Source: a virus
DNA: 27,256 nt
Direction: 5' to 3' (one strand)
Virus record (IMG/VR): IMGVR_UViG_3300010354_009484
Span: 1-27,256 of that record
Made by a program: the position numbers and the translations under genes. Position 1 is the stretch's first letter. Each line of letters starts with the position of its first letter. Shown here piece by piece: positions 11,765 to 27,256 of this stretch. The notes beneath the pieces are model-generated. The model searched no databases, had not been told where the DNA came from, and saw only the letters and a program-made list of their open reading frames with translations.

Positions 11765-12855
11765 TACCTTTCTTTGGTGTCGATAGGCAATATCGTAATC
11801 TTCGCGAAGAAATCTTAGACACCATAGACAGAGTATATTCCACTGGTCGTGTGTTAGATGGTGAATATACCAAGGAATTTGAAAGAAACATTGCTCGTCG
11901 TTGTCATCGCAGTTATGCTTTAGCAGTAAACTCAGGTACACAAGCATTGATATTTTCTCAGCAAGCAGCAGTATCAAACTCACCATATTCTGTTTTAATC
12001 CCCACTGTTAGTTTTGTAGCCACTATCAATAGTGTGTTAATGAATGGCTATACTCCTGTTTTTTGTGATATTGATCACAAAGGTTTACTAGACCTAGACA
12101 CTTACGAAAACAAATTAGATCTAAGTGTTGGTGCAGTTATGTATGTAAATTTGTTTGGTAATTGTATAGATTATGATAAATTTCGTATGCAAACAGAGTT
12201 CTTCAATGACAATTTAATTACCATTGAAGATGCTGCGCAAAGCTTTGGTGCAAGTTATAAAAATATACCCAGTGGTAAAATGGGCGATGTCAGTATACTA
12301 AGTTTTGATCCTACAAAAAATTTAAACAACTATGGATCCGGGGGCATGATACTTACAGATGATTTTGAAATTTACAGTAGATGTTTGGCTCTTAGAGATA
12401 ATGGAAAAATGTCACACGATGTTCCGGGAACTAATAGTAAAATGAACGAAAGTGACTGTGCTCAAATGTTGATAAAACTAAAGCACTTTGACAGCTGGCA
12501 GCAGCGTCGAGCGGAGATAGCCGATTACTATATTGATCAATTGTACCAATACTGCGATATTTTAGTGCCAAACAAAGATGTTACACATGCATGGCACAAA
12601 TTTGTACTGAGAACCAATAACAGAAATAGTTTAATGCATCATCTGAGTTTGGCCGGTATCGAAACTAAAATACATTACGAACATGCACTTTATGATTTGG
12701 GTGTAGGATTTAACTACATGGATTACAGTAAAGATCTGTATACAGAAACATCAGCATTTACGAGAGAATGTGTTAGTTTGCCTATATATCCTGAACTACA
12801 GGATACAGAAGTTGAAAAAATAGCGGCGCTGGTCAAAAGCTATCTGACTTATTGA
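11755..12855 (+). CDS. DegT/DnrJ/EryC1/StrS sugar aminotransferase
   Basis: 366 aa, PLP-dependent. It shows the N-terminal block STGRVLDGEYTKEFE, the NSGTQAL phosphate-binding loop, IEDAAQSFGA (the PLP-ring Asp) and the PLP-binding lysine K188 in FDPTKNLNNYGSGG, followed by LRDNGK. Members transfer an amino group to a keto sugar nucleotide, so it probably acts on the product of the upstream epimerase/dehydratase. Starts within the last 10 nt of that gene. Its 3' end overlaps the convergent large minus-strand gene by 23 nt. Confidence 0.92.
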   Translation: MQVIPFFGVDRQYRNLREEILDTIDRVYSTGRVLDGEYTKEFERNIARRCHRSYALAVNSGTQALIFSQQAAVSNSPYSVLIPTVSFVATINSVLMNGYTPVFCDIDHKGLLDLDTYENKLDLSVGAVMYVNLFGNCIDYDKFRMQTEFFNDNLITIEDAAQSFGASYKNIPSGKMGDVSILSFDPTKNLNNYGSGGMILTDDFEIYSRCLALRDNGKMSHDVPGTNSKMNESDCAQMLIKLKHFDSWQQRRAEIADYYIDQLYQYCDILVPNKDVTHAWHKFVLRTNNRNSLMHHLSLAGIETKIHYEHALYDLGVGFNYMDYSKDLYTETSAFTRECVSLPIYPELQDTEVEKIAALVKSYLTY

Positions 12856-15445
12856 ATCTATCTCGAAGCCAAACCCATTCAAAACTCAACATTAGTTTGT
12901 TGTAATCACCGTCAACTTCTTTGTAGTAACTGACAGCATCCTGAGCTCCACGCAAACACCAATCACTATAATCGCCTGATGCCACAGTCAACCATGTGTC
13001 CAGCCTGTGTTCAGTTTCTAGTGTAGGTTGTGTAGCCATAAAATGTTTTAACTTGACAACTTCTCTAAATGCTGTACGCCAGGTAGTCCACGGATCTTGA
13101 TTAAACTGTGCTACCCCACTCAGTAATGGCACACTCTCATGAGGCTGACTCAATGTGAAATCAATACCAGGATCGTTGTTTGCCAATACCAACTTTTTAT
13201 TGTAAGCAATCATGCCTTGATGTCCGTACTCGAGACCATTGACTGGATTACGAGCATTGAAGATATAATGCTTGGGCTCTTGCCAGTAATCAGGTTGCCA
13301 AGTTTCCCATGGAAATGTATTGCCGACCACTTGTAACTTTGCAAACACAGCAAAGAACCATGCGGTATCGCTAGCACGAGCCGCGGCCTGATAAGCAGCC
13401 ACACGACCGTTTATACCTCTAACCCATTTAACTGGCGCATTGGTCATATATTCAGTATGATGGAACATTAGTTCTTCATCAGGTTCTCCGTTACTAATGA
13501 ATACGATGTCTAGCGGTTGTGATTTATGTAAGACTACTGTTTCTTTATTGATGTATGGATAATCATACACCTGTGTTTTGAGGTAAGTCTTTACATCTCT
13601 GGGTATCAATGCGGTACCATGGGTAGTAGACAACGGTTCTGCTATTCTATCTTTGGCACTCCATAAACAAGGACTAGGCGGATAACATGGAGTCTCGTCT
13701 TGTTTATTAACAAAAATAGCATACGGAAAGTCAAAGGTAGTTGCCTTGATTGTATCTACAATAGTATCATCATCATACAAGATTTCTGGTACTTCGTATC
13801 TTGGTACCACTTGATCTTGACAGTAATTTATAACATTAAACCAATCGAGTATTTCTAGTTCATACATTTGTTTTTTGAATGAACCTACATGTATGTAAAA
13901 TGTGTCACCTCGTTTTTGTGTGCCGCTGGGAAACACATGAATCATTTCTGATTGCCAAGCTTCTGGATGCCAAGTAAAATCAAATTGTCTATAATCACAG
14001 ACGCTGTTTATGATCCATACATATTCTGTGTCGGCTGTAGACATTATTCTTTTAAATGTATCAAGATAGTTGTCTACAAATCTAGTTATTTTAATTTTAG
14101 GATATTCTTTTTGTAGAGCAGCAAGATGATGATTTTCATTACCATGGTCCACGTAGTATATGTTATTACCGTCACTGTCGGCATGAACCTGTTGATTACT
14201 GACAAAATTTAAACTAGGAAATTCTTTTATGCTCTTGGCCCATTTATTATTCCTTTCAAACTCCCATCGGTTAATAAGGAAAGTGTCACTCCATTTATTC
14301 CATTGACTAGGGAATATGTGTGTCATGCCATGTTGCCACGGGTCCGGTTGCCAATCAAAGTCAAATTGGTTATAATTATTTTTGCTACTTACGACCCAAA
14401 ATCTTGCAGTATTAGATCTTGCGCAGCATCTTGTAATAGTATCCATTATGCTATTTGCATGACGAATTCGCTGTATGTGTGGATACTTTTCTTTAAGTGT
14501 TTCATACCTAGACATACTGTTTGGATTATGATAATCTACATAAAAAATGTCTAATGTAGATAGTTTTGCACGTATATCTCCAACAAATTTTCTTTCTGTT
14601 GCTCCAGGTACATGATACTCAACGGTACTACTGCGTTCACCATCCCAGTGTTGATTACCAAACACATAGATATAAGGAGGATCGTGCGGATCGGGGCACC
14701 ACGAGAAATCAAACTCCACTGGTACATCACTATTGACTACCCAGTTGTCTTGTGTTGCAGGTAGTGTTGCCTGCGGCTCATATAGATACTTACGTTCTGT
14801 TGCTCCGGGTACATGATATTCCACTGTGGGCATTTGCTCGGGACTGTACCATTGATTACCAAATACATAAATGTAAGGAGGATCTTTGGGGTGAGGATGC
14901 CAATCAAAATCAAAACTTTCGATATTTACAAGGCATTTAAAATCTGCTTTATGTTCTTTATACTCTGCAACAATTTCATTTACATATTTTGTTTGAACAG
15001 CATTGTTAATACAAAATTTAGGTCCGCCCTCGGGATAAAACTTGGTCGGAAACTCGTAATTATAGGGCGGGTCAATTGAATTAGGATGCCAGGAAAAATC
15101 AAATAAAGCACTGTCAATGTTATCTGGTATTTGCCAATTTTCTTTACTTGGTAATCTTACTACTTTTTGCTCGTTTCTGAAATTATAAATTTTTTGATCA
15201 AGTGTATATTTGTTGGCCAAAAATACATCGCCGCATGGTTGCCATTGACTTGGAAAAACGTGTATATGATCTTGCTCCCAAGGCGGCGGTCTAAATTCAA
15301 AATCAAAATTGGTGTAATCGTTGTCACTATAAATAAACCAGTAGAACTTGGTTCTACTTAAATACCCTGCTTCTTCTAAACTGTTTGCAAATTTTTCATG
15401 TGCAAACAAATTAGGTTTTTTTCCAAAATAAAATATATCAAACAT
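12833..15445 (-). CDS. Large repeat protein, FDF-W-P modules, possible glycosyltransferase-like
   Basis: 870 aa. Seven copies of an FDF-x-W-x-P signature are visible, at about residues 47, 115, 178, 245, 361, 488 and 711 (the last degenerate, FPWETWQP). In full modules the signature comes after LDIFYVDYHNP-like and TARFWVVSS-like strands and before IFPSQW...DTFLINR, so the repeat unit is roughly 130 aa. LDIVFISNGEPDEELMFHH near 645 begins the last module. Strand, charged loop and Asp patterns resemble GT-A glycosyltransferase fragments, and the neighbours are sugar genes; this is inference. Residues 780-870 are a separate helical C-terminus. No signal peptide. The start codon overlaps that of the divergent gene; no clear Shine-Dalgarno is seen. 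Confidence 0.85.
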   Translation of the reverse strand: MFDIFYFGKKPNLFAHEKFANSLEEAGYLSRTKFYWFIYSDNDYTNFDFEFRPPPWEQDHIHVFPSQWQPCGDVFLANKYTLDQKIYNFRNEQKVVRLPSKENWQIPDNIDSALFDFSWHPNSIDPPYNYEFPTKFYPEGGPKFCINNAVQTKYVNEIVAEYKEHKADFKCLVNIESFDFDWHPHPKDPPYIYVFGNQWYSPEQMPTVEYHVPGATERKYLYEPQATLPATQDNWVVNSDVPVEFDFSWCPDPHDPPYIYVFGNQHWDGERSSTVEYHVPGATERKFVGDIRAKLSTLDIFYVDYHNPNSMSRYETLKEKYPHIQRIRHANSIMDTITRCCARSNTARFWVVSSKNNYNQFDFDWQPDPWQHGMTHIFPSQWNKWSDTFLINRWEFERNNKWAKSIKEFPSLNFVSNQQVHADSDGNNIYYVDHGNENHHLAALQKEYPKIKITRFVDNYLDTFKRIMSTADTEYVWIINSVCDYRQFDFTWHPEAWQSEMIHVFPSGTQKRGDTFYIHVGSFKKQMYELEILDWFNVINYCQDQVVPRYEVPEILYDDDTIVDTIKATTFDFPYAIFVNKQDETPCYPPSPCLWSAKDRIAEPLSTTHGTALIPRDVKTYLKTQVYDYPYINKETVVLHKSQPLDIVFISNGEPDEELMFHHTEYMTNAPVKWVRGINGRVAAYQAAARASDTAWFFAVFAKLQVVGNTFPWETWQPDYWQEPKHYIFNARNPVNGLEYGHQGMIAYNKKLVLANNDPGIDFTLSQPHESVPLLSGVAQFNQDPWTTWRTAFREVVKLKHFMATQPTLETEHRLDTWLTVASGDYSDWCLRGAQDAVSYYKEVDGDYNKLMLSFEWVWLRDRFNKSDSF
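14582..14914 (-). repeat. Internal duplication in the 870-aa gene
   Basis: Residues about 178-221 and 245-288 are near-identical: both have FDF-x-W, DPPYIYVFGNQ and TVEYHVPGATERK. The DNA is also closely similar (the segments near 14590-14640 and 14790-14830 share long runs). This suggests a recent tandem duplication of about 200 bp. Confidence 0.8.
15328..15335 (+). promoter_or_regulatory. T4-type late promoter for the plus-strand glycosyltransferase
   Basis: Exact TATAAATA on the plus strand, inside the opposite-strand 870-aa gene, 108 nt before the ATG at 15444. No other promoter can sit between the two divergent genes because their start codons overlap, so this is the best candidate for driving the 378-aa gene. 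Confidence 0.5.
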
Positions 15446-16580
15446 GTATAATATTCATAGCCACTACGAAAATATTTTTGCCTATCTCAAAACAATTATA
15501 GAATATCCAGTTTTACTTTATTTCTATCCATATGGATCAATAAAATATGACAATATAGAAATGATGCATAGCAATGGAAATTGCACCAGTCCTGTGCTTT
15601 TTTGCTTTGACCAAGAACCAATAACACCAGACTTTGAAAACTTAATAAATCAATTGATTGATCATTGGAGCAAGTATAGAAATATTATTATACTTAACAC
15701 AGAACCAGATAGTCAAATAAAAACCTCTATAATAGAAAAATTAAAATTACAATCATACAGATTATTTGATTGTAATTACTTTTTCCATATTTTTGCAGCA
15801 GCAGATTGGTATAGAAGTTATTATTATCATTCGGGCATAATTCCGCCTCAAGAACGTAAGATAAACAAAAAATTTATTACCTTCAATCGAATTACAGGAA
15901 ACAGTAGAGCTTACAGAGGTATTTTTGTAGCTCAACTAATCAAAAGAAATTTACTAAATCATGGACATGTTAGTTTTAGCCATATTTGCCCCGAGCATGG
16001 ATCATATTCGGAATCGTCATTGGATTTGATTACCAAACATGGAGTTGATTCTGATTTAATTTATGATACTATAAAAACTCTGAATTCAATCGAATACAAT
16101 CTACGTATTGACCACGTGGACGAACCTTTTATTTTAAATGGCAGTCAGACTATAGACTGTTTACCACAGTTAATGGAAACATTTGTAAATATTGTTACAG
16201 AGACTTGCTTTTGGGAAGATAAAAAACATCTCACTGAGAAAATTTTTAAACCAATTGTTACAAAACACCCTTTTATATTATTGGGTTGTTGCAATAACTT
16301 GAAATATCTTAAAAGTTATGGCTTCAAGACATTTGACAAGTGGTGGGACGAAAGTTATGATGATATTCAAGATCCAATACAGCGTCTTATGGCTGTCACA
16401 CGCATAGTAGAAGAAATATGTTCTCGTGATACAGAAACATTAGAAAAAATGCTTTGCGAGATGCAATCTGTACTAGATTACAACTTTAACTTATTTTATA
16501 GTAAATCATTTCTAGATACTGCATGGAACGAGTTGACTGAAAATTTACGCAATACAATAGAACAAACAAAACTATCCTAA
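15444..16580 (+). CDS. Putative GT-B-like glycosyltransferase
   Basis: 378 aa. The N-terminal half has FCFDQEPI and a KFITFNRITGNSRAYRG block; the C-terminal half has ETCFW (253-257), then LTEKIFKP (263-270), HPFILLG and GFKTFDKWWDESYD. The T-E-K motif followed by a Pro-Phe-Ile segment resembles the nucleotide-sugar-binding region of fucosyltransferase-like (GT10-type) GT-B enzymes. Related proteins are common in T4-like phages of aquatic bacteria. Acceptor and donor are unknown. Start codon overlaps the divergent gene by 2 nt; the stop codon overlaps the convergent dCMP deaminase stop. It is the only plus-strand gene after 12.9 kb. Confidence 0.7.
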   Translation: MYNIHSHYENIFAYLKTIIEYPVLLYFYPYGSIKYDNIEMMHSNGNCTSPVLFCFDQEPITPDFENLINQLIDHWSKYRNIIILNTEPDSQIKTSIIEKLKLQSYRLFDCNYFFHIFAAADWYRSYYYHSGIIPPQERKINKKFITFNRITGNSRAYRGIFVAQLIKRNLLNHGHVSFSHICPEHGSYSESSLDLITKHGVDSDLIYDTIKTLNSIEYNLRIDHVDEPFILNGSQTIDCLPQLMETFVNIVTETCFWEDKKHLTEKIFKPIVTKHPFILLGCCNNLKYLKSYGFKTFDKWWDESYDDIQDPIQRLMAVTRIVEEICSRDTETLEKMLCEMQSVLDYNFNLFYSKSFLDTAWNELTENLRNTIEQTKLS

Positions 16581-17230
16581 TCACTTGTGTCGCGAGACAA
16601 TTTTTGAATTAATATTTTAGATTTTCTAAGGAATTCAATACCAGTAGTCTCGCGATACTCATCGTGGTAATACACCTCGGTGATTCCAGATTGATAAATT
16701 AATTTGGCACACTCTAAACAAGGACTATGAGTGACAAATAAACTAGCGCCATGTCCACTTTCGTTTGATTTAGCCAACTTTGCTATAGCATTTGATTCAG
16801 CATGTAATACCTCTGGTTTAGTTTTTAAACTACCATCCTCGGATGTATCTTCGCAAATATTACTCCAGCCGGCTGGCATTCCGTTGTAACCAATTGAAAT
16901 AATTCTATCATCTTTGACAATTATACAACCAACTTTTAATCGCTGAGCATGACTTAATTCTGCAAAAGTTTGCGCGGTCTTCATGTAGGTTTGTTTAAAT
17001 TTTTCTTTCATTGATCTATCTCGTATTATAGCTGTTTTGTTTGTAATGGTCAGATAACCTTCACAGTAAACATTCCATTTTTCAACACCGTTTTCTATAG
17101 TCACATCATCTCGTAAGGGCACACGAACATCTAAATGTTCTAATAGGTGCTCATTACCGTTTTCAAACACACGCCAGACTTTTCCACTACCGTTATGTTG
17201 ATGATTAAATCTTATGTGATATTTGTTCAT
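16577..17230 (-). CDS. dCMP deaminase with an extra N-terminal domain
   Basis: 217 aa. The deaminase domain (about residues 74-210) has the zinc motif HAE (H143-E145) and PCLEC (C171, C174), plus GYNGMPAGW, typical of dCMP deaminases that supply dUMP. Residues 1-70 (from MNKYHIRFNHQHNG) form a separate small beta domain. Start at 17230 is preferred because a longer frame from 17320 would overlap the upstream gene by 116 nt and has no family similarity. An internal Met (residue 74) coincides with the domain boundary and could give a second, shorter product. Last gene of the minus-strand cluster; overlaps the kinase-like gene by 26 nt. Confidence 0.9.
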   Translation of the reverse strand: MNKYHIRFNHQHNGSGKVWRVFENGNEHLLEHLDVRVPLRDDVTIENGVEKWNVYCEGYLTITNKTAIIRDRSMKEKFKQTYMKTAQTFAELSHAQRLKVGCIIVKDDRIISIGYNGMPAGWSNICEDTSEDGSLKTKPEVLHAESNAIAKLAKSNESGHGASLFVTHSPCLECAKLIYQSGITEVYYHDEYRETTGIEFLRKSKILIQKLSRDTSD

Positions 17231-17624
17231 ATATTGTCTTTGCCCATCGTCCTGCATCTTGCTCGGTAACTCTGATGTTGTAATAATCAGGCGCAACAAA
17301 TGCTCGATTGGTATCTTCAAATCTGCCTTCAGTTAAGGTATCTACCCAAACAGTAAAATGCGGATCGTAGATCCCACGCATTTCTGGTAAAGGACAAACA
17401 AAGTCTGCTATTACATATTTGGTACCTGCACGGTCGGCCAGTTGTCTCATTCTTGAGCTTTGACGTACTCGGCCTTCATGATCAAAATCCCAGTCATTGT
17501 ACTTTTTTCTCACTTGGTCTGCATTGAGCCAGATGACATCCGGTTGCAGATAGTGCATTAGATTCAAAGCCAGTGTTGTTTTCCCGGCACCGGGCAATCC
17601 CATTATTAATATACGCTCGGTCAT
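17205..17624 (-). CDS. Adenylylsulfate kinase-like P-loop protein, 139 aa
   Basis: Walker A GLPGAGKT is at residues 9-16, followed by WLNADQVRKKYNDWDF, which resembles the DGDNVR-N-LGF block of APS kinase (CysC), and KYVIADFVCPLPEMR, like its AAFISPxRxxR block. APS kinases are usually about 200 aa, so this is a short version. It may phosphorylate a sugar or sulfated intermediate rather than APS. Overlaps the carbamoyltransferase by 4 nt. Confidence 0.75.
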   Translation of the reverse strand: MTERILIMGLPGAGKTTLALNLMHYLQPDVIWLNADQVRKKYNDWDFDHEGRVRQSSRMRQLADRAGTKYVIADFVCPLPEMRGIYDPHFTVWVDTLTEGRFEDTNRAFVAPDYYNIRVTEQDAGRWAKTIYEQISHKI

Positions 17625-19105
17625 GAAAAAACCTTTACACCGTATTGTTGTTCAAATCTATCTGCATCACTACGATCATTGACCATGGGTTCACCCTTAA
17701 TGTTTAAACTGGTATTCAGCAACATAGGACAATCTGTTATCAAGAACCATTTCTCCAATAGTTCTCGGATGCCCGATCCATCTCGTGGAACCGTTTGAAC
17801 TCGGCTGGTACCATCATAATGGCATATAGCAGGGTAACGGTCAGGATACCTACACCTAGCGACTGACTGCATATAACGGCTAGTATTCCACCCAGGGCTG
17901 AAATCAAAATACTGATCAGCCATCTCTTCAAGGATGACAGGGGCGAAAGGTCTAAACTTTTGTCTGCGTTTGATTTCATTTACTCTATCCTTTATATCAG
18001 GTCCTCTTGGATCTGCTAGCAAACTTCTGTTGCCTAAAGCACGAGGACCAAATTCAGCACGACCATTAGCAACACCACAAATACCGTCAACCAATAAACT
18101 ATCAAGTATAGATGTAACCGGATACGGTCCTGGAATATCGTGGCCAAGATAAGCATTGACCCAATTAAGACGACGCCCATATTCAAGTGCGGCAGCACCA
18201 AGGCTGCTACCAGCATCACCAGGATTAGGCATAATCCAAATATTTTCAAAGTATTCTCCTAGGTTTCTATTGGCCAAACAATTAAGTGCCACTCCGCCCA
18301 TGTAAACAAGATTTGTACTCCACTTAAAATCTCTTGCTCTACGCATGACATTATAAACTAGGTTTTCTAATACTTCTTGTGTAGCAGCAGCAATATGAAC
18401 ATCTTTCATATCGTCTAGTATTTGATCATGAAAACCAGTATGCCAATTTTCTTTAAAAGAGATTTCCCACTCATTATTAATTGCTCTATTTTTTAAATAA
18501 TATCCTAAGTCATCTTTTAAAGAAGATCCATACGCAGACATTCCCATTAGGATGTATTCATCTTCGTTGGGTTTAAGCCCAATCTTTTGAGTCATTGCAC
18601 TGTAAAACAAACCTATACTATGAGGATATTTTTGCGACCACAATTTACGATATCTTGCAAGACCCTGATCGTCATATTCGGCACCCCAAATACTTACGGT
18701 ATCCCACTCGCCAATTGCGTCGATGACTACTACTGTTGCCCGATCGTATGGGCTAGTTTGAAAGCCGCCGGCGGCATGACTTAAATGATGATCAAAAGAA
18801 TGAATGAGACAATTATATTTTTTGCCTAATTCTTGTGTGACACATTGTGTAGCAGTCAATCGCTTCCATTGTATTCCTTCGCCGGAATACATTCTGCGTA
18901 ATTGTTTTTTCCAAGATTTTTCGTAATAGGCTATTGCACCAATATTGTATTGTTCTATATCTTTAAGAAGATCAGGGCTAATATGTTCGTCATTTTTTAA
19001 TTTGCTATAACGTTCACTGTGCCCTGCAAATAATATGTCGCCTTGACGATTTATTACGCTTATTGCAGCATCATGAAATCCAGTCGAGAGTCCTAATATG
19101 TTCAT
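17621..19105 (-). CDS. NodU/CmcH-family carbamoyltransferase
   Basis: 494 aa. It transfers a carbamoyl group from carbamoyl phosphate to a hydroxyl. N-terminal domain: ILGLSTGFHDAAISVI, HSERYSKLKNDEH, the HHLSHAAGGF metal-binding block (H106-H110) and VVVIDAIGEWD. C-terminal domain: GGVALNCLANRN, PGDAGSSLGAA, RAEFGPRALGNRS and KFRPFAPVILEE, ending in MLLNTSLNIKGEPMV. All key blocks are intact, though it is somewhat shorter than typical 550-600 aa members. In this sugar-gene setting the acceptor is probably a sugar. Cytosine carbamoylation is less likely because the local ThyA is dUMP-specific. Overlaps the SGNH gene by 35 nt. Confidence 0.93.
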   Translation of the reverse strand: MNILGLSTGFHDAAISVINRQGDILFAGHSERYSKLKNDEHISPDLLKDIEQYNIGAIAYYEKSWKKQLRRMYSGEGIQWKRLTATQCVTQELGKKYNCLIHSFDHHLSHAAGGFQTSPYDRATVVVIDAIGEWDTVSIWGAEYDDQGLARYRKLWSQKYPHSIGLFYSAMTQKIGLKPNEDEYILMGMSAYGSSLKDDLGYYLKNRAINNEWEISFKENWHTGFHDQILDDMKDVHIAAATQEVLENLVYNVMRRARDFKWSTNLVYMGGVALNCLANRNLGEYFENIWIMPNPGDAGSSLGAAALEYGRRLNWVNAYLGHDIPGPYPVTSILDSLLVDGICGVANGRAEFGPRALGNRSLLADPRGPDIKDRVNEIKRRQKFRPFAPVILEEMADQYFDFSPGWNTSRYMQSVARCRYPDRYPAICHYDGTSRVQTVPRDGSGIRELLEKWFLITDCPMLLNTSLNIKGEPMVNDRSDADRFEQQYGVKVFS

Positions 19106-19631
19106 TGATTTTTTCTGCTATTCGTTGATGACCTAATTCTAAAGGATGCCCGCCTGAACCTTTTGGACAATCCCACATCCATTCCACAAAACCAGATCTA
19201 GGCCATCCTAGCCACGGTGCTGGAGGTTTACCCATTGCCCATGGTTGTATATCAAAAGCACTGACAAATAAATGATTAATTCTTTTTGACTTTAGATAAT
19301 GATGCATCAATTTGACTGTGGTATAAAATCTATCTCTGGCCCAAAAAATATCCCAATCTTTAAAGACCTCGTCAACTATTTTGCCATATTTTCTATTGCT
19401 AGTCGGAGTCAAATGTTTACCACATAACTCTATTCTGTTAGGGCTTGTCCATGCTATTATAGCATGAGAAGGTTTTTTCACTTCTTCAATATACTTGACT
19501 GTACTATGTAATATATAATCGTTACTGGCTCCGGGAGTGGCAATATTGATTGTATCAGGAATCAGACTGGGCCAAGCTATGGGACTCTCTTCCCCGCTAG
19601 TAAAACTACATCCGTTGACTAATATTTCCAT
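19071..19631 (-). CDS. SGNH-hydrolase-like protein, 186 aa
   Basis: Starts MEILVNGCSFTSGEE, a GDSL-like block with the nucleophile Ser in GCSF, then ATPGASND (block II Gly and block III Asn) and GGHPLELGHQRIAEKI (block V, His). This fits SGNH/GDSL hydrolases, which often acylate or deacylate sugars. The second SGNH-like gene lies upstream, separated by the 33-aa gene. Its ATG starts 1 nt after the stop of that small gene. Confidence 0.7.
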   Translation of the reverse strand: MEILVNGCSFTSGEESPIAWPSLIPDTINIATPGASNDYILHSTVKYIEEVKKPSHAIIAWTSPNRIELCGKHLTPTSNRKYGKIVDEVFKDWDIFWARDRFYTTVKLMHHYLKSKRINHLFVSAFDIQPWAMGKPPAPWLGWPRSGFVEWMWDCPKGSGGHPLELGHQRIAEKINEHIRTLDWIS

Positions 19632-19632
19632 T

Positions 19633-19734
19633 TTACTTATATATAAAAGGATCTCGCTTACGCAATTCGCGTAATTTACGGCGATATTTTATTTCTAATT
19701 TAATTCTGTTCCAAAGATTTCTTAACCAATGCAT
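19633..19734 (-). CDS. Very small basic protein, 33 aa
   Basis: Reads MHWLRNLWNRIKLEIKYRRK, then LRELRKRDPFIYK, ending in TAA. It fills the otherwise empty gap between the two SGNH-like genes, overlaps the upstream gene by 35 nt, and its stop is 1 nt before the next ATG, so it is translationally placed. The protein is Arg/Lys-rich, one amphipathic helix with a Pro-Phe tail. Position and composition support a real gene; function is unknown. It is too short for most gene finders. Confidence 0.65.
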   Translation of the reverse strand: MHWLRNLWNRIKLEIKYRRKLRELRKRDPFIYK

Positions 19735-20440
19735 TAAATTTCTCTTTCATTAATTCCGCAGCATCATAATGTGCCTGCTCTAGCGGATGTTGATAAGGCC
19801 CTATAGGATATTTATTTTCTACTGCCCATTGATAGAAACCTCTAGGAGTAGTAGTATTATATGGTTCTGTAGCAGAAGGGAACATAAACCAATTATCATA
19901 ATCAACCATTTGCCAGTATTCGATCAACTGCGGATCATTTTTGTAAGAAAATACAATATTGTCAGTTGCAGTAAACAAATAAGGAATATTATTAAACTTG
20001 AGATACGTTTGTAACATTACAATACTTTTAATGGTATTGAAATGTTGAAACCAATCTATTCTAATATTGGTAAAAAATTGCTTTGCAAACTCTTTTACTG
20101 GCTTTCTATTGGTTCCTTCGTGTATGCTGATAGTAGCAAAAGGACTATCTGGACTATCCGTATTGTAGTCAAATGGAAACTCAAATCTTGGAACAAATGT
20201 CCATGCCACAACAACAATAGGAGTTTTATTCTCTTTCCGAACTTGATTGCATTTATTAACGGTCATTCTCAATATAGCATCATTGGAATTTCCCGGTCTC
20301 GCACAGCATACATAATTCAAATTGTTCCAATTACTTAACAAAGAAGTAAATGTCAACAAACTATCCTTTGGACTGTTTATGTCCCAGTCAGATAATTCAT
20401 TACCGTGAACAAAACTATCACCGCCGGCTACTAAAATCAT
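19700..20440 (-). CDS. SGNH-hydrolase-like protein, 246 aa
   Basis: N-terminus MILVAGGDSFVHGNE carries a GDSF (GDSL-like) nucleophile block; RPGNSNDAILR gives the block II/III Gly and Asn, and QHPLEQAHYDAAELM gives the block V His. Overall plan and end motif match the shorter SGNH-like protein at 19071, so they are paralogs. It has a longer insert with Phe/Asp-rich stretches. A sugar O-acyl-transfer or esterase role is possible. Overlaps the upstream gene by 23 nt. Confidence 0.7.
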   Translation of the reverse strand: MILVAGGDSFVHGNELSDWDINSPKDSLLTFTSLLSNWNNLNYVCCARPGNSNDAILRMTVNKCNQVRKENKTPIVVVAWTFVPRFEFPFDYNTDSPDSPFATISIHEGTNRKPVKEFAKQFFTNIRIDWFQHFNTIKSIVMLQTYLKFNNIPYLFTATDNIVFSYKNDPQLIEYWQMVDYDNWFMFPSATEPYNTTTPRGFYQWAVENKYPIGPYQHPLEQAHYDAAELMKEKFNALVKKSLEQN

Positions 20441-21611
20441 ATCCTGGCCTCATCATATCAATCTGCATTTGTTTGTAATCTTTATCACTCCAGCAATAGT
20501 CATATACTTTTTTAACTCCGTTGATCTCTATAGAATATATGTCTAAATGATCACTCAGTATATCCCATATTTTAAATTTATCATCTGTGCCAAAAGAGGA
20601 TTTCAATTGAATTTCTCCAATTGGCAAATAACCATTACTCAAGTCAGGGTCGTCTGGATCTTTTCCATTTGTTATCATCCAATCTCTAAACTCATCTATG
20701 TGATTAGTAAACCATGGAGTCTCGGGGTTGTTGTAAATAGTATCTTTGCCCCACTCAACATCAAATTCTCCGCTATAGTATTGTAATTGCGTAATAGCTT
20801 CGCAAACGGTATCATCTAGTTTGGGAGCATTTTCATCTCTAAATACTTCAAAAAAAGTTTTGCCAATTTGAGTCCAGTGCATATAAACTCCTCCAAGTTT
20901 TCTGTCAAATTTATTTTGCACAAAACCTTGTCGATGTTCATCGGTCAAATTGTATCTTGGGGCATGTAGCCACGTGGTAATTTGACTGGGTCTTATCCAG
21001 TCTGGAACATATTTTAATTTTTGTTGGCTTAAAATTAAATTTTCTATTTCATGGCATAGATTGTTTAACTGCCTAATAGCGTATTTTGTTTCATAATCTG
21101 CGATACGATAATAATCACTCAAATTCCAAACTGTGCCTTGTAATTTTTCAAAATGATTATGCAATGCATTCATTGCACTTTTTTTTGTTTGAAGCCCAAG
21201 ATGTTGACAATAGTATTCTTCAGTCTGCAGATTCTTTTTATATCCTTTGTCACCTATATCGTATTCTTCTCCAAATCTTACAACATCAGGAGTAAAGTAA
21301 TCTTCAATGATATATGATTCTAAACCATTTTTTTGCCACTCGAGACTGGCATTAAACATATTGATTTGAAAAATTGCTTTGTTGACTTCTGTACAGAGAT
21401 ATTCTAAATTTCTTTGTGTCTTAGGAAATCCTATAAAACAAAAATTTTTTTCTAGAACATTGTTAGATTTCAACAGTTCTTGTAATGCATTGATCCAATC
21501 ATTGGCCAACGTATTTTCATATGGCATGATATCATAATCAATCTCATCTTTGAAGTTCAGGGGATTACGTAATACAACTTTAACCAATGGAGTTCCACCA
21601 CTCATATACAT
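20418..21611 (-). CDS. Unrecognised protein paired with radical SAM gene (family X), 397 aa
   Basis: Not recognised. It starts within the last 32 nt of the radical SAM gene at 21580. The start at 21611 has a GAGAG ribosome-like site; 21605 is an alternative ATG. It shares its plan with the protein at 22877: a VKVVLRNP-type start, NTLANDW, a helical IRQLNNLCHEIENL segment, a KLGGVYMHWTQIGKTFFEVF strand region and a GYLPIGEIQL block. It is longer and has an extra C-terminal part (about 340-397). No known catalytic motif, signal peptide or membrane span. It is probably a substrate-binding, carrier or partner protein of the radical SAM enzyme; this is inference. Confidence 0.75.
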   Translation of the reverse strand: MYMSGGTPLVKVVLRNPLNFKDEIDYDIMPYENTLANDWINALQELLKSNNVLEKNFCFIGFPKTQRNLEYLCTEVNKAIFQINMFNASLEWQKNGLESYIIEDYFTPDVVRFGEEYDIGDKGYKKNLQTEEYYCQHLGLQTKKSAMNALHNHFEKLQGTVWNLSDYYRIADYETKYAIRQLNNLCHEIENLILSQQKLKYVPDWIRPSQITTWLHAPRYNLTDEHRQGFVQNKFDRKLGGVYMHWTQIGKTFFEVFRDENAPKLDDTVCEAITQLQYYSGEFDVEWGKDTIYNNPETPWFTNHIDEFRDWMITNGKDPDDPDLSNGYLPIGEIQLKSSFGTDDKFKIWDILSDHLDIYSIEINGVKKVYDYCWSDKDYKQMQIDMMRPGYDFSSRR

Positions 21612-22887
21612 CTGCTCTCTTTGATAATATTTCGTCCATAGTTGTTGACTGTGTACGAATAGATTCTAATTTTAACACACGAGCCTTGCCTTGAGCAACT
21701 CCTTTGAGATAAGCATCTGTTCCGTATTGTTCAAAAAATGTAGGGCGTGTCTTTAACTGAACTAGTATATCCTTTAACGATCCAGCAACTCCGGCATTTA
21801 AGATTTCATCTACCCAAGGATCTAAAACGGACCTAGGTAAGGCCAATGGTGACATAATTATGTCTGGACCAAAACTAAACATAACTTTGGCTAGGATGTC
21901 AACACCTAACTCGTCGCCCAACTGCTGTATATTTGTGACTTCAAACATACCCGGAAGGGTAAGCGTAAAGTCTAGTCTCATTTGTCTTGAGTGTGTAGAG
22001 ACTCTAACTCCTTCCTTAAAGTTTTCAAGCCAGCTTTCATAATCAAGGCCTGTTCGAATATACTCTCCAATCGCTCCTGTGCCGTCGATGCTGGCGCAAA
22101 TTTGCCAATCACGCAAATGAGCGAGTACATCTTTATAAAGATTGCAACCTCTATAATTAATGCGGCTAAGATTAGTATTGTATCTAGCGTAAACATTCTT
22201 TCCGTCTCCCAGTTCTATTATTCGTTGCATATACCGCCAATGTTGCTCGTACATTAACGGTTCGCCACCTACCCAATATACTTCTTCTACACGGTGGTTC
22301 TCTACTGCTGCTGCAAACTCTTCTTCAACATGAGTATTCTGGAACTGTTCAATTTCGTGTTTGATCTCAGGTTTCATCCAATTGTTTTTTGGATCCAACC
22401 AATTGATCATATCGTGTTGTCTTTGTTCACTTTCCCAACTACTAGACAACATGTCACCGCACATACGGCATTTGAAATTACAAAGATTACTAAACCTATA
22501 ATCCCAACTAACAGGCTGCATGGTTGTATAACCTGTTTCGTCTGTACTTTCTAGCACTTGCAAATACTTATGTCCGAATAAATTATTAAAATAACTACGG
22601 TAAACATCTGTGTTTAATAATTTATTGTTACAAACTTCACACTCGGGTAATGTTTCGCCAGCTAACATGCGTTTTCTTACTGAACGCATATGCTCACCGT
22701 TCCAATGTTCTTCTAATGTGATTGGTATGTATTTTCCTGTGCCGGCCGTGGTATCAATATACTGTTCAAAATTTTGTGCGGGTTCTCGGCTGGCACAACA
22801 CATTCGTCTTTCAGTTTGTGGACTTAGATACGTATGAGTCCATGGTGCCATGCAAAGAGTTTTAGATTTTTCTAGTTTATTCATCAA
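21580..22887 (-). CDS. Twitch-domain radical SAM protein, 435 aa
   Basis: N-terminal Cys cluster CMAPWTH (C12), MCCAS (C30-C31) and ECEVC (C83, C86), as in N-terminal-twitch radical SAM proteins, probably binding an auxiliary iron-sulfur cluster. The core has SNLCNFKCRMCG (CxxxCxxC, C136, C140, C143), which binds the SAM cluster, and the WVGGEPL SAM-amino-group motif. Substrate unknown. It overlaps family-X genes at both ends (11 nt with the one at 22877, 32 nt with the one at 20418). Second residue is also Met, so the start could be 3 nt later. Confidence 0.9.
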   Translation of the reverse strand: MMNKLEKSKTLCMAPWTHTYLSPQTERRMCCASREPAQNFEQYIDTTAGTGKYIPITLEEHWNGEHMRSVRKRMLAGETLPECEVCNNKLLNTDVYRSYFNNLFGHKYLQVLESTDETGYTTMQPVSWDYRFSNLCNFKCRMCGDMLSSSWESEQRQHDMINWLDPKNNWMKPEIKHEIEQFQNTHVEEEFAAAVENHRVEEVYWVGGEPLMYEQHWRYMQRIIELGDGKNVYARYNTNLSRINYRGCNLYKDVLAHLRDWQICASIDGTGAIGEYIRTGLDYESWLENFKEGVRVSTHSRQMRLDFTLTLPGMFEVTNIQQLGDELGVDILAKVMFSFGPDIIMSPLALPRSVLDPWVDEILNAGVAGSLKDILVQLKTRPTFFEQYGTDAYLKGVAQGKARVLKLESIRTQSTTMDEILSKRADVYEWWNSIG

Positions 22888-23668
22888 AAGTAATTGATTC
22901 TAATTCTAAAACAGGAGCAGTCACTATCATTGCCAAATCATCTAAATTTTGCACTTTTCCTACAACTGGGTACCCTGTATAGGCCAATATTTTTTCTTCA
23001 GTGTGCTGCGCTACAAATTCAGGACTTTGTGTTTTAAATGCTGTCAACACATCCATTGGGTCTATCACAGGAAAATCCTGAACTGTGATATTAATACCAG
23101 GTTTAACGAAATTGTGGAATTTACATGTCTGTGATATGTTTGTAAAATCATTCTCTAAATACACTTGCAAAGGGCCATGTCCAACATATGGGTTTTGTAA
23201 ACGCACATCACCAAATACTAGTCGATTTCTAAATATATTGGTGTTGTCAAGAGGAAATCCAATATCATTGTACCATTCAATTTGAAGCCACCCGGTTCTT
23301 TTTTTTGATGTTTTTCCGTCTTGAATGATGTGTAAGCAATAGTGCAATTCGTGTATCAGATTGTCTAGTTCTTCGGGTATTGCATCAAAACCAGCAGATC
23401 CTATCAGTCTCTCAATATCTTTGTGTAATAATGCAGTAATTGATATGTCATAGTTATCAAAACACCATTCCCACCCTAGTTTTTCTTTTGCTTCCCTTGC
23501 CAGCTGTAGCATGTACTCAACTGTATACTTGGGTCTATCTCTGAATAATGGAAACGATTTTCTATAATTATTCTTGACCAACGCAACATACTTTTTTCCT
23601 AGAGCAGTGTTATCAATGTCTAATACCAACTGATTATAGTTTTTAAATTTTACATTAATAGTTGGCAT
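22877..23668 (-). CDS. Unrecognised protein paired with radical SAM gene (family X), 263 aa
   Basis: Not recognised. Start at 23668 (MPTINVKFKN) is 1 nt after the stop of the preceding radical SAM gene and aligns with the start of the paralog at 20418; a longer frame from 23689 adds 7 residues inside that gene. Shared plan: a short beta start, LDIDNTALGKK, EELDNLIHELHYCLHI helix, RLVFGDVRLQNPYVGHGPLQ strands and YTGYPVVGKVQNLDD. It ends in an acidic tail. No catalytic motif is evident. The conserved GVYMHWTQIGK/GDVRLQNPYVGHG region may be the functional core. Confidence 0.75.
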   Translation of the reverse strand: MPTINVKFKNYNQLVLDIDNTALGKKYVALVKNNYRKSFPLFRDRPKYTVEYMLQLAREAKEKLGWEWCFDNYDISITALLHKDIERLIGSAGFDAIPEELDNLIHELHYCLHIIQDGKTSKKRTGWLQIEWYNDIGFPLDNTNIFRNRLVFGDVRLQNPYVGHGPLQVYLENDFTNISQTCKFHNFVKPGINITVQDFPVIDPMDVLTAFKTQSPEFVAQHTEEKILAYTGYPVVGKVQNLDDLAMIVTAPVLELESITFDE

Positions 23669-23669
23669 A

Positions 23670-24881
23670 CTATTTGTACCCCATGGCATCTGCTATTTCC
23701 GGATGTGTATCAGCAAAATTTTGATTTCTATATAGATCAGTTTGCTTCATTCTTGTAAAAAAGTCTTTACCGTCACTACCTGGGCCGTTTTCAATGAATT
23801 TTATTACGGCATCTATCTCTTTGCGAAATAGTACAGCCCAACTGTGAGTTTTTAATTTAGATAAAACCAGTTCTCTTGCTTGTTCAGTCATATACTGAAT
23901 ACTCATATGATTTGGGCTATGCATCATGTTCCAATGAATGCTTCCGAAGTTTTTAGTACCGGCCCATGCAAGCAATTCATCAATGTAATAAACATTTTGT
24001 ACATTAATTGTAAAACAAAGTTGAGTGGTAATATTCGGATAAGAAGATTTCATATCGTTAACTGCATCAATAATTTCGTTTGCAGTATTCCAATTTGCAC
24101 CGTATCTTTCGAATTCAAATCTATTGCCAACATTATCAATACTAAATGCTACATCAACACGACCAAAATCTTTCCATATTTCTACTAGATCTTCAGGCCA
24201 CTGAGTGGCATTGGTATTGTAGTGTATATCAATATTTTTAGAATATCCTTGTTTTACAGCATATGTCAATAAATCAATATGTTCTTGTATAAGCCAAGGT
24301 TCGCCGCCGGTAAATTCAAAGTACTTTATGTTTGGCAACAAGGATTTTAAATTATCCCAAAAATTTGTATCTTGATTTCTAGGCCATGCTCCTTGTTTTA
24401 ACCACTGGTAAGCAATGTGTTTTGTTTTGTTAGATTGAGCAGGCATGTATTTTAATTCTTCGTCTGCCCACTTGCTGCTAGACCAAGACCCACAAATTCT
24501 ACACTTTAAATTACAAATATTACCCAATTTTAAATCAAGAAACCATAATTGATTAGGCGTATCATTTTGCCAATCAACTTGTGCATACAATTCTTTTAAT
24601 CTTATTCTACTGTTAATTCTTTTACTGGTTCTACCTGCTGCTTCTTCGTCCCAACACAATTTGCATGTTTCTGGTTTTTCGCCAGATCTAAACTGTCGGC
24701 GAAGATTTTGCATGTATTCGCTTTGGTATATAGTTTCTAGATTGTCGACGTTGAGATCGAACTTTTTACCATCGCTATCAACTATCTCGCTTCTTGCCAA
24801 ACAACAAGGTCGCGCTGTTCCAATTGGACTAGTTTCTATACTGATCCAGGGAAGCATACATATTGTTTTAGGTAGTTCCAT
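23670..24881 (-). CDS. Twitch-domain radical SAM protein, 403 aa
   Basis: N-terminal Cys residues ICMLPW (C8), RPCCLAR (C26-C27) and ETCKLC (C73, C76) match the twitch pattern of its neighbours. The SAM-cluster motif is GNICNLKCRICG (C123, C127, C130), and EFTGGEPWL supplies the GGEP motif. It is followed 1 nt later by a family-X gene. A TATAAATT box (24914-24921) lies 32 nt before the start, so a promoter inside the cluster is possible. Substrate unknown. Confidence 0.9.
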   Translation of the reverse strand: MELPKTICMLPWISIETSPIGTARPCCLARSEIVDSDGKKFDLNVDNLETIYQSEYMQNLRRQFRSGEKPETCKLCWDEEAAGRTSKRINSRIRLKELYAQVDWQNDTPNQLWFLDLKLGNICNLKCRICGSWSSSKWADEELKYMPAQSNKTKHIAYQWLKQGAWPRNQDTNFWDNLKSLLPNIKYFEFTGGEPWLIQEHIDLLTYAVKQGYSKNIDIHYNTNATQWPEDLVEIWKDFGRVDVAFSIDNVGNRFEFERYGANWNTANEIIDAVNDMKSSYPNITTQLCFTINVQNVYYIDELLAWAGTKNFGSIHWNMMHSPNHMSIQYMTEQARELVLSKLKTHSWAVLFRKEIDAVIKFIENGPGSDGKDFFTRMKQTDLYRNQNFADTHPEIADAMGYK

Positions 24882-24913
24882 AAAAATTTGTTAAGTGATT
24901 TGTTATCAATGAA

Positions 24914-24921
24914 AATTTATA
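24914..24921 (-). promoter_or_regulatory. Possible late promoter (TATAAATT) inside the minus-strand cluster
   Basis: On the minus strand TATAAATT matches 7 of 8 bases of the T4 late consensus. It lies in the only real gap (40 nt) in this cluster, 32 nt before the ATG at 24881. It could boost the genes from 24881 leftwards. Confidence 0.4.
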
Positions 24922-26388
24922 CTAAGCAAGTTTTTCAAATTCTGGAAAAGTTTTCCAGAAATCTTCTCCTCTTATAAGATCTAATTTTTGAACTTGTTGT
25001 TTAAATTCTTTATAGCTATTGGTTTGTTTGATAGAAGCTACAAAGTTTTCAATTTCCTCATCTACAAATTTGTTACCTGTTTTGATGTTTTCATTGAATT
25101 CTTCCCAACTTGGCCAATCGTTGCCTTTCATTTTATTGTATTCAAATTCAGGAATTAGTACATTCCTAGTAGTTGGATCTGACATTACATAACTTAATAA
25201 AGATTTGTATCCGGAAGTGGCTCGACATAATTTATCTTGCGGTTCTAGCCATTTCAAATGTTCTTCATATTTAGGTTTAATAATTTCTTCTTTAAACCAT
25301 TTAGGAAAAATATTTGGGCGATACCACTCGGGGCCTTGGCAATGATTAATATTCCAATCTTTTGCTTCTATCAGTCCCAGTTCGGTCCATTCTCTATGAA
25401 AATCCATAACATGCAATACATTCATAGAACTCACCGTAGAGCTTACATAAAAATCCACATGCGGAACTTCCTCGATCATTCTTTGTCGATTTTCTATAGT
25501 TTGTTGCCAATCCGTTCCTTTGCGCATCAATTCTGCTCTTGCTCCACTGGCATCTAAGCTAGCACCTACACTTATATTTTTAAAATGCTTCCAGTAGTCA
25601 AATACATGTTTATCCTTGTATCTTAGTTCGCTGAAATTGGTATTATACTGAATGCGAACATCTGTTTTACCTAACTCGATCAACTTTTCTAACATGAAGT
25701 AATGTTCCTTCATGATTAGAGGTTCGCCTCCGGCAAAATAAACTTGTTCAAGATATGGAATGTGAGGTAACATTTGCTCGAGCATGCTATCTTCATCGCC
25801 CGCAGTATATTCTACTCGTGCCATTTCTCTTCCTAGTACATCAGGTTTACGATTATAAAGTTTAATATGATCGTTGTACCAATTGCTACTAAAAATAGGT
25901 CCACAAGAGCGGCAACTAAAATTACATAGATTACTAAATCTTACATCCCAATATCTTATTTTAAATTCTGGATGAGTTCCATCTTGGGCAGTTTGATTGA
26001 TTTCGTTGATGTGGTGACCGTAATTACGATTGGCATCATTGCGCATACTAAATGCACCATGTTCCTCTCGTTCGTAACATTTGATGCATTCCTTGCATGG
26101 TTGATCATTCAGCATGTTTGTACGCATTGTACGGTAGGCTTCTTGGTTCCATACCTCTTCCATGGTATGTTTACGCAAGTCGCCCACTGGGTGCCAGTAT
26201 TCGCTCAAACAACAAGGATAAGCACGACCATCAGGAAATGCATGCATATGAACCCATGGAAGCATACAAAAAGATTTGCTTTCTACCAATTTGTACCATT
26301 GATCATCAGTCAAAAGATCTTTGTTAATGAAATAAGGCGCTCTTTCATTGTAAACAAAACCTTTGTTATAAAATTTTTTAATTGTCAT
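24922..26388 (-). CDS. Twitch-domain radical SAM protein, 488 aa
   Basis: The largest copy. N-terminal Cys: SFCMLPWVHMH (C41), YPCCLSEYW (C59-C60) and PCKECIKC (C98, C101, C104). Core: SNLCNFSCRSCG (C155, C159, C162) and YFAGGEPLIM. The extra 40 residues at the N-terminus and a long charged C-terminal helix distinguish it from the others. ATGA overlap with the upstream radical SAM gene shows coupling. Not directly followed by a family-X gene. Confidence 0.9.
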   Translation of the reverse strand: MTIKKFYNKGFVYNERAPYFINKDLLTDDQWYKLVESKSFCMLPWVHMHAFPDGRAYPCCLSEYWHPVGDLRKHTMEEVWNQEAYRTMRTNMLNDQPCKECIKCYEREEHGAFSMRNDANRNYGHHINEINQTAQDGTHPEFKIRYWDVRFSNLCNFSCRSCGPIFSSNWYNDHIKLYNRKPDVLGREMARVEYTAGDEDSMLEQMLPHIPYLEQVYFAGGEPLIMKEHYFMLEKLIELGKTDVRIQYNTNFSELRYKDKHVFDYWKHFKNISVGASLDASGARAELMRKGTDWQQTIENRQRMIEEVPHVDFYVSSTVSSMNVLHVMDFHREWTELGLIEAKDWNINHCQGPEWYRPNIFPKWFKEEIIKPKYEEHLKWLEPQDKLCRATSGYKSLLSYVMSDPTTRNVLIPEFEYNKMKGNDWPSWEEFNENIKTGNKFVDEEIENFVASIKQTNSYKEFKQQVQKLDLIRGEDFWKTFPEFEKLA

Positions 26389-27256
26389 ATATTATTGTAC
26401 CAATCTGCCAGTTGTGGAAAAGTTTGAACAAAATCTTTTTTCCTACGTAAATCGTATTGTGTATAAAACTTTTTAAAATCTTGCTGCAACATTGATTGTT
26501 CAGCCGCTCCACTGTGCGGAGTTTTGACTACATCTAAATAATCAATTAACCGTTGAATATGATTTTTTTCGTGCTGATGTAACCATTCGTTATTGTTATT
26601 ACTAGATAACCATTGTTCAAGATTATTTTTGTGCCGAGTTCTTATTTCATCAGACAATACCAATGGACTTTGAAAACTAGGAAATCTTAATATATTTAAG
26701 GTAAAATTGGGAAAGTCTCGTCCATAACACATTTTCCATTGTATCATACAATCTAAAAACTCAGTTAAACTTTCTAAACAAAGTGCATTAATAGTACACA
26801 TTACATGCAGCCTATATAATTTCACTTCTGCATAGTTGTCACAGATTAGTTCTATATTATTAGCCCAATCGTCCCAAACCAATCCGTCTCTAATATACTC
26901 TGCATGACTGCCGACACTTTCATTACTAGTGTATAGGTCAATGGGTGCATCCACACTTGCAAATAAACGATCAAGATCAACTTGAGTTCCTAGGTTACTG
27001 TTAATTGCTAATCTTGTTTGACTTCGGCCTTTATTGTTTTTAAACCAATCAAGCAACTGCCAGGTATAACCTGACATGAGAGGTTCGCCTCCGGTAATAC
27101 GTAATTCGTTTAGTGTTTTGTGGAGATCTGATTCCCACCATTCAAAGAAGGCGTTGATATACGGGTTATTTTCACCATATTTAAAAAGCTGCGCACTGTC
27201 ATGGCTATGAGTAAAATGATTGCGGCCATCAGACTCCAACCCCATGTATGGCCCAT
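26385..27256 (-). CDS. Radical SAM protein, 5' end beyond the window
   Basis: Partial; about 290 C-terminal residues are visible and the reading frame is open to the right edge. LRITGGEPLMSG is the GGEP motif, and RLAINSNLGTQ and the C-terminal plan (DFVQTFPQLADWYN at the end) match the other radical SAM proteins here, whose ends also read DFxxxFP or similar. The CxxxCxxC cluster should lie beyond the edge. An apparent Met at 27245 is internal, not a start. The stop overlaps the next gene by 4 nt. Confidence 0.85.
   Translation of the reverse strand, partial: GPYMGLESDGRNHFTHSHDSAQLFKYGENNPYINAFFEWWESDLHKTLNELRITGGEPLMSGYTWQLLDWFKNNKGRSQTRLAINSNLGTQVDLDRLFASVDAPIDLYTSNESVGSHAEYIRDGLVWDDWANNIELICDNYAEVKLYRLHVMCTINALCLESLTEFLDCMIQWKMCYGRDFPNFTLNILRFPSFQSPLVLSDEIRTRHKNNLEQWLSSNNNNEWLHQHEKNHIQRLIDYLDVVKTPHSGAAEQSMLQQDFKKFYTQYDLRRKKDFVQTFPQLADWYNNI

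Follow-up and report, generated by a model that had tools for sequence, protein, structure and literature searches.

A five-gene radical SAM cassette closed by a new partner family in lake phages, with a possible role in glycan tailoring

What would a phage do with four radical SAM (rSAM) genes in a row? The question is raised by a viral DNA of 27,256 nt (IMG/VR record IMGVR_UViG_3300010354_009484, positions 1 to 27,256; hereafter the window), in which a preliminary description had correctly recognized four minus-strand rSAM genes. We refer to them as beta (26385..27256), gamma (24922..26388, 488 aa), delta (23670..24881, 403 aa) and epsilon (21580..22887, 435 aa, with a TTG start and an ATG at 22884). 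All were compared with NF033640, the NCBIfam model of twitch domain-containing radical SAM proteins (N_Twi_rSAM), which has a cut-off of 170 bits. The whole-protein scores of gamma (370.6 bits), delta (342.6 bits) and epsilon (289.6 bits) exceed this value, and gamma additionally matches the SPASM and Radical_SAM families of Pfam. Beta is a fragment whose 5′ part, including the N-terminus and the CxxxCxxC motif, falls beyond the window end; it scored 159.2 bits over model positions 150-398 and was assigned by its clear position in a phylogenetic tree, within a beta clade of ~449-aa proteins. The window proteins have in common with the model an N-terminal, Cys-rich twitch/SPASM-like part followed by a core with CxxxCxxC and GGE. 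These two motifs are intact in 95/95 proteins checked across five rSAM clades, with 19/19 orthologues each for gamma and delta. The N-terminal Cys sets are conserved within every clade, and the SPASM match of Pfam is likewise N-terminal.

Comparison of 20 loci from related phages demonstrated that the row in the window is part of a larger unit, consisting of five orthologous rSAM paralogues, alpha to epsilon, in a fixed order, of which the window holds beta to epsilon. The basic unit is these five distinct genes plus a partner gene, PA2, which follows epsilon. In many lake phages the row stands directly behind tail-fibre genes and is almost always closed by PA2. The cluster was found in 18/18 large phage contigs, each with 5 to 14 N-twitch matches and one PA2. 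NF033640 itself is silent on function, and we found no description of an arrangement with five orthologues in set order and a locked partner.

One function proposed for phage rSAM genes is host cofactor biosynthesis, such as that of PQQ, as suggested for methylotroph phages of Lake Baikal. The rSAM genes of T4-like Methylophilaceae phages with 35% GC have been read as PQQ-related (PMC7678222), and the cassette phages may belong to this type. However, the PqqE model gave gamma (24922-26388), the window protein for which a score is listed, 15.8 bits against a cut-off of 381.35; the rSAM proteins of the window all fit NF033640 instead, and the PQQ pathway does not need five distinct paralogues. 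Given a PqqE score so far under the cut-off, PQQ biosynthesis is disfavoured, and we consider a cofactor role very improbable.

Two genes for partner proteins are interspersed with the rSAM genes on the minus strand. As had been noted before, PA2 (20418..21611, 397 aa) shares 32 nt with epsilon, and its coupling to this gene is general: its homologues directly adjoin an rSAM gene in 92/98 distinct proteins (82/85 ORFs in a count at ORF level), epsilon is followed by PA2 in 19/20 loci of the tree set, and the two reading frames mostly overlap, usually by 4-59 nt. At least 523 relatives of PA2 are present in IMG/VR. The longest ORF of PA1 (22877..23668, 263 aa) starts at 23689, but homologues favour a start at 23668; with that start, the 1-nt gap to delta given in the preliminary description holds. 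The expectation that both partners keep rSAM neighbours was borne out for PA2 and failed for PA1: of its 42 distinct homologues, only about 10 adjoin an rSAM gene. PA1 is thus an optional member, and delta is without it in 13/19 loci.

These counts bear on the suggestion, also made in the preliminary description, that a two-part module of rSAM enzyme and partner had been duplicated. Such a history would lead each partner to keep its rSAM neighbour, which PA2 does and PA1 does not. Moreover, delta groups with gamma (support 92/86) rather than with epsilon, leaving the duplicated unit unsupported. Since a tree grouping delta with epsilon was not rejected (p-AU 0.152), the sequences do not firmly reject a duplication either.

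Neither partner was named by searches of Pfam, PHROGs and NCBIfam, and no matching chain was returned by a PDB sequence search with the PA profiles tried. Nor is their relationship visible directly: BLASTP of PA1 against PA2 gave nothing significant (E 0.79), and a direct profile comparison with hhalign gave nothing. It appeared only through bacterial intermediates, with a bacterial PA profile matching PA1 over 235 columns (hhalign probability 95.7, E 8.7e-9) and PA2 at a probability of 100 (E 1.3e-59), while reversed and unrelated control profiles reached probabilities of at most 0.4. The AlphaFold models of the two proteins (pLDDT 91.6 for PA1 and 92.4 for PA2), compared by the order of their secondary-structure elements together with the profile match, are collinear. 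PA1 and PA2 are therefore remote homologues within one new superfamily, in agreement with the earlier proposal that both belong to the same unrecognized family. H89, E93 and H120 of PA1 align with H151, E155 and H187 of PA2 and with H117, E121 and H153 of the bacterial protein; both His are conserved in 100% and the Glu in 96%. These residues, a His-x3-Glu motif and a further His, are placed on two adjacent helices and are a candidate site for binding a metal or ligand. Cyclophilins are the top PDB matches of both models in Foldseek, at values below significance (E 0.11, probability 0.89; E 0.6, probability 0.15), and PA differs from the cyclophilin fold in bearing a long helical insertion with conserved residues of its own. 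Neither the PA family nor the substrate of the cassette has been described before. For PA this may be because no phage of the INPHARED set has a sequence match to PA1 or PA2; a tblastn with either partner over 50,697 phage records found nothing.

The genes around the cassette point to its possible substrate. Beyond PA2 lie, all on the minus strand, two SGNH-like proteins (19700..20440 and 19071..19631), a NodU/CmcH-type carbamoyltransferase (17621..19105; PF16861 156.8 bits and PF02543 133.4 bits, both over cut-off, and phrog_1601 309.9 bits), a P-loop kinase-like protein with AAA_33 and APS_kinase matches (17205..17624) and a dCMP/cytidine-type deaminase (16577..17320; PF00383, 83.8 bits). 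The first SGNH-like protein has GDSF and C-terminal HP motifs by reading and a match to Pfam DUF6071 below cut-off; the second is of the same family, with iterative searches from the two reaching an identical set of 177 ORFs, and in 63/85 loci PA2 is immediately followed by a member of this family. Further along are two conserved flanking families, D11 (15444..16580, plus strand; glycosyltransferase-like by reading, with no family match over cut-off and 98 relatives in the fetched loci) and the repeat-rich D10 (12833..15445, minus strand; no Pfam or NCBIfam match), followed by a DegT/DnrJ sugar aminotransferase (11755..12855, plus strand; PF01041, 261.8 bits) and an NAD-dependent sugar epimerase/dehydratase (10790..11764, plus strand; PF01370, 141.6 bits). 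Upstream of the cassette, the fetched large contigs start the series with a giant structural gene; tail-fibre-like genes come next, then two GT8-like genes preceded by a protein of ~310 aa, a GT2-like D10 gene and finally the rSAM row. The GT8-like assignment is a sequence reading, for which Pfam gave nothing above cut-off, and the GT2 match of the short D10 relative upstream of the cassette is weak (Glyco_tranf_2_3, E 0.0063, below cut-off). The cassette is thus flanked by tail-fibre and GT8-like genes on one side and by SGNH, carbamoyltransferase and sugar-nucleotide genes on the other, and the glycan or envelope setting suggested in the preliminary description is supported by these neighbours.

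Our preferred reading, to which we give a probability of roughly 0.45, is that the locus serves large tailed phages as a glycan-building and glycan-tailoring cassette within their host-recognition cluster, with PA2 working together with epsilon. We infer in this the glycan substrate, the reaction types, the function of PA and the site of action. Under this proposal, the glycosyltransferases and sugar-nucleotide enzymes would supply a sugar chain, and each rSAM enzyme would alter it by a radical reaction of its own, such as epimerising, dehydrogenating or deoxygenating a sugar carbon. The SGNH and carbamoyltransferase proteins would decorate hydroxyls, and PA2, whose frame overlaps that of epsilon, would act with this enzyme in presenting the substrate or in the next step. 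The finished glycan would sit on the tail fibres or on the envelope of the infected cell. If this is correct, phages use radical chemistry to remodel the sugars of surfaces or virions, which would affect adsorption and superinfection exclusion.

There are parallels in other large phages. Host-recognition clusters of pelagimyophages, which are rich in glycosyltransferases, gain rSAM cassettes (PMC7029224), and rSAM-rich T4-like phages are known from the ocean, one with 12 rSAM genes (PMC5332604); according to the parts of these accounts available to us, freshwater pelagimyophages are without rSAM genes (PMC7029224/PMC5332604). Both groups are large T4-like phages with rSAM genes in a hypervariable region alongside tail fibres and glycosyltransferases, while neither the five-paralogue order nor a PA-like partner is reported in the available parts of either account. 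Vibrio phage K566/K567, an isolated phage of 255 kb, has five N-twitch-type rSAM genes interleaved with glycosyltransferase-like genes. In the tree its rSAM proteins form long branches that fall in none of the five clades, and a profile search found no PA homologue in K566, at a threshold that also missed a structural relative of PA in the isolated Agrobacterium phage Atu_ph07. The K566 cluster is an independent parallel for the glycan reading.

A different possibility is that the rSAM enzymes and PA modify protein, either a small peptide in the manner of RiPP maturases or side chains of the tail-fibre or decoration proteins encoded nearby, with PA as a substrate binder in place of an RRE domain. 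In the fetched large contigs, tail-fibre-like genes of the same strand directly precede the cassette, which is consistent with this idea, as are the weak scores of N-twitch proteins on several peptide-maturase models and the eight rSAM genes within the tail-fibre cluster of Aeromonas phage 332-Vera (PMC12390700). Cyclophilins, the weak top matches of both PA models, are a peptide-binding fold. Additional evidence comes from Atu_ph07, where a PA-fold ORF overlaps an SPASM rSAM gene of the peptide-maturase type and a neighbouring protein of the operon ends in CHSSCHASCHNSRSRR, a RiPP-core-like tail. This favours a peptide substrate and counts against a glycan. The PA relative was found only via a structure library, the profile search having missed it at its threshold, and it then ranked as the top ORF at a non-significant E of 0.016-0.03. 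The cassette resembles the radical SAM/SPASM RiPP systems (DynA, PapB, DarE, His-Xaa-Ser) in the tight coupling of rSAM enzyme and partner. It differs in its N-terminal twitch part and in that neither a precursor peptide, sought beside the cassette as CH-repeat tails, nor an RRE domain, sought in the partners with Pfam and NCBIfam, was found. A pattern search of K566 and of 19 large viral contigs, 18 of which have the PA2 cassette, found no exact CHxxCHxxCH tail; Atu_ph07 gave the sole exact match. A CH-repeat RiPP-like substrate for the PA2 cassette was rejected on this basis. Glycan genes, moreover, surround both the PA2 cassette and the K566 cluster. We consider a protein substrate rather unlikely overall.

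PA might also be an independent family, for instance a metalloenzyme or binding protein with its own pathway, with PA2 merely travelling together with epsilon. PA1 homologues mostly lie away from rSAM genes, one PA relative in a T4-like contig has a gp32-like and a uvsX-like gene as its neighbours, and in Bdellovibrionota, where a genome may have several PA copies, most copies are solitary. Against this, PA2 adjoins epsilon in more than 90% of distinct cases, mostly with overlapping frames, and of the seven contigs above 40 kb with a non-adjacent PA1 that were searched, five have above-cut-off N-twitch genes elsewhere. The distribution of PA outside phages also argues for a connection. It was found in 19/129 genomes of Bacteriovoracaceae relatives and hardly elsewhere, being almost missing from Pseudomonadota; N-twitch rSAM proteins occur in 19/19 of the PA-bearing Bdellovibrionota genomes and in 44/110 others (p = 2.4e-7 by Fisher's test, without a correction for relatedness). 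We regard independence as rather improbable.

The most far-reaching version of our proposal is that PA is a new cyclophilin-like superfamily with a two-His-one-Glu metal site, acting as a dedicated rSAM partner, that the cassette is a radical assembly line of the phage, whose product, a modified sugar or side chain not known from elsewhere, would sit on tail fibres or on the surface of the infected cell, and that Bacteriovoracaceae make use of this pairing as well. As a whole, this is doubtful. The PA family also opens a way to learn what bacterial N-twitch rSAM proteins do. Among the Bdellovibrionota there is one true pair of rSAM and PA genes (L148), two genes on one bacterial contig; inspection of its neighbouring genes revealed no glycan genes, which counts against the glycan reading.

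The right third of the window, a 27,256-nt piece of an IMG/VR virus record, carries, on its minus strand, four N-terminal-twitch (N-twitch) radical SAM genes (NCBIfam NF033640) and the partner genes PA1 (22877-23668) and PA2 (20418-21611), whose products have no match in Pfam, PHROGs or NCBIfam. Five orthologous clades were resolved in a tree built on 125 radical SAM sequences sampled at 20 loci, plus proteins from Vibrio phage K566 and from L148, a bacterial locus. In phages, the corresponding genes stand in a constant order, alpha (~461 aa), beta (~449 aa), gamma (~440 aa), delta (~404 aa) and epsilon (~435 aa), followed by PA2. The catalytic motifs are intact, with CxxxCxxC and GGE kept in 95/95 clade members checked; the fourth radical SAM gene of the window falls in a well-defined clade and runs off the end of the window, which leaves its CxxxCxxC motif out of view. 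PA2 has at least 523 relatives in IMG/VR. A radical SAM gene lies directly upstream of PA2 in 82 of 85 loci, with overlapping frames in nearly all, coupling PA2 to epsilon. These data support a basic unit of a five-enzyme row and one locked partner, PA2.

The preliminary description read the locus as a duplicated module of radical SAM plus partner. The place between delta and epsilon is taken by PA1 only in some loci, delta lacking PA1 in 13 of 19, and in a careful tree delta joins gamma (92/86), not epsilon, with a delta-epsilon grouping not rejected (p-AU 0.152). Because PA1 is optional and delta groups with gamma rather than epsilon, duplication of the unit is not supported. The related claim that the partners travel with radical SAM genes holds for PA2, which adjoins one in 92 of 98 distinct proteins, and fails for PA1, which does so in only about 10 of 42 distinct homologues. 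On larger contigs where PA1 lies away from radical SAM genes, N-twitch genes often occur elsewhere, with as many as 13 or 14 matches on a single contig. Seven phage contigs of about 200-350 kb (G136, G139, G140, G144, G148, G149 and G150) each have 11-14 matches to the N-twitch model, many outside the cassette.

Comparison of PA1 with PA2 gave nothing by BLAST or by direct profile comparison. When the PA2 alignment was run against bacterial genomes, a divergent relative (30% identity) emerged at L148, in a Bacteriovoracaceae genome bin, and PA homologues are present in 19 of 129 genomes of its class, Bdellovibrionota. The bacterial PA profile matched PA2 with an E-value of 1.3e-59 and PA1 with a probability of 95.7 (E 8.7e-9, 235 columns), while control profiles (reversed PA1 and six unrelated) reached at most 0.4. 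The two partners thus belong to one superfamily, as originally proposed. AlphaFold models of PA1 (pLDDT 91.6) and PA2 (92.4) share one order of elements: two strands, followed by helices, strands and a strand-helix-strand at the C-terminus. An alignment of 69 members has two invariant histidines and one glutamate conserved at 96% (PA1 H89/E93/H120, PA2 H151/E155/H187, L148 H117/E121/H153). One histidine and the glutamate sit one turn apart on one helix, with the second histidine on the next long helix, and these residues could form a metal site. Cyclophilins head the solved-structure matches for both models, without significance; ten confident relatives among viral models, all uncharacterised, were found by structural search.

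At L148, the radical SAM and PA genes overlap by 4 nt as a two-gene operon; the contig is an ordinary bacterial one, with genes for peptidase S9, SNase, deoxyhypusine synthase and MscS alongside. Most other Bdellovibrionota copies of PA stand alone, and a relative in a T4-like contig of genome bin TMED46 (L232:1426-2223) lies between gp32-like and uvsX-like genes, with no radical SAM gene in the 3.3 kb of sequence covered. It is nevertheless rather unlikely that PA acts independently of radical SAM enzymes. All 19 PA-bearing genomes of the class have N-twitch radical SAM genes scoring over the cut-off, versus 44 of 110 others (Fisher p 2.4e-7, uncorrected for relatedness). Across the class such genes occur in 63 of 129 genomes, often several per genome. 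Among 398 Pseudomonadota genomes, PA was present in only one, the bin that had yielded an earlier match.

In 15 regions fetched from large contigs, the same-strand order upstream of the row begins, where coverage allows, with a giant structural gene and continues with several tail-fibre-like genes, a gene for a ~310-aa protein, two GT8-like genes (assigned by reading, with no Pfam match), a GT2-like gene and alpha, with other genes sometimes in between. This matches the pelagimyophage host-recognition cluster, in which radical SAM cassettes and GT8 genes have been noted (PMC7029224); a T4-like ocean phage carries 12 radical SAM genes (PMC5332604). The radical SAM subfamily and radical SAM cassettes in host-recognition clusters are known; no account of the PA superfamily, of its coupling or of the order of five paralogues was found in the open-licence literature. 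In 50,697 phage records, tblastn found gamma-like genes only in Vibrio phages K566 and K567 and one short single-cell record. K566 has five N-twitch-type radical SAM genes (L267:17980-35347; four annotated as such, 23454-24716 as hypothetical), most interleaved with glycosyltransferase-like genes. By reading, the interleaved genes are GT8-like and GT4-like, and a PagP-annotated gene is near.

In the window, PA2 is followed by genes for SGNH-like proteins, a carbamoyltransferase with both NodU/CmcH domains, a P-loop kinase-like protein and a deaminase; further left, the opposite strand encodes a DegT aminotransferase and an NAD-dependent epimerase. An 870-aa protein (12833-15445), made of repeats such as FDFSWCPDPHDPPYIYVFGNQ, has no family match, and its relatives differ strongly in length. 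We tentatively propose (probability about 0.45) that the row acts on a glycan, given the sugar-nucleotide, glycosyltransferase-like, carbamoyl and SGNH-like genes around it and the similar setting in K566. On this reading the five radical enzymes, which are non-redundant, would modify sugar carbons one after another or as alternatives, and PA2 would help epsilon or take the step after it. The product may be borne on tail fibres, whose genes lie directly upstream, or on the envelope of the host; in the latter place it could keep out competing phages, a role proposed for glycosyltransferases in PMC7029224. A role in PQQ biosynthesis, the suggestion made for radical SAM genes in a phage population from Lake Baikal (PMC7678222), is disfavoured, since the PqqE score is 15.8 against a cut-off of 381.

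A protein or peptide substrate is rather unlikely, and is considered mainly because the row adjoins tail-fibre genes and because of an operon in Agrobacterium phage Atu_ph07. There, a 300-aa structural relative of PA, one of the ten from the viral models, was assigned, by length and best profile match among 989 ORFs, to ORF 117995-118897 (profile E 0.016-0.03, not significant alone), which overlaps a SPASM radical SAM gene. The operon (L275:1997-9646, at about 116-124 kb in Atu_ph07) comprises several radical SAM genes, a cupin-like gene, a CH-tail protein gene and the PA-fold ORF, all annotated "hypothetical protein". CH-tail phage proteins (about 175-300 aa) end in the RiPP-core-like CH[SA]SCH[ST]SCH[GS]SRGRR and are found at 40 IMG/VR loci (L302-L374) and in Atu_ph07 (L275:7118-8008; MF403008 121118-122008); their PHROGs entry gives only unknown function. 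A radical SAM gene lies directly upstream in 33 of the 40 IMG/VR stretches and a gene of a conserved ~245-aa family directly downstream in 30, often with a cupin-like gene present. This set appears to be a phage protein-modification system in its own right.
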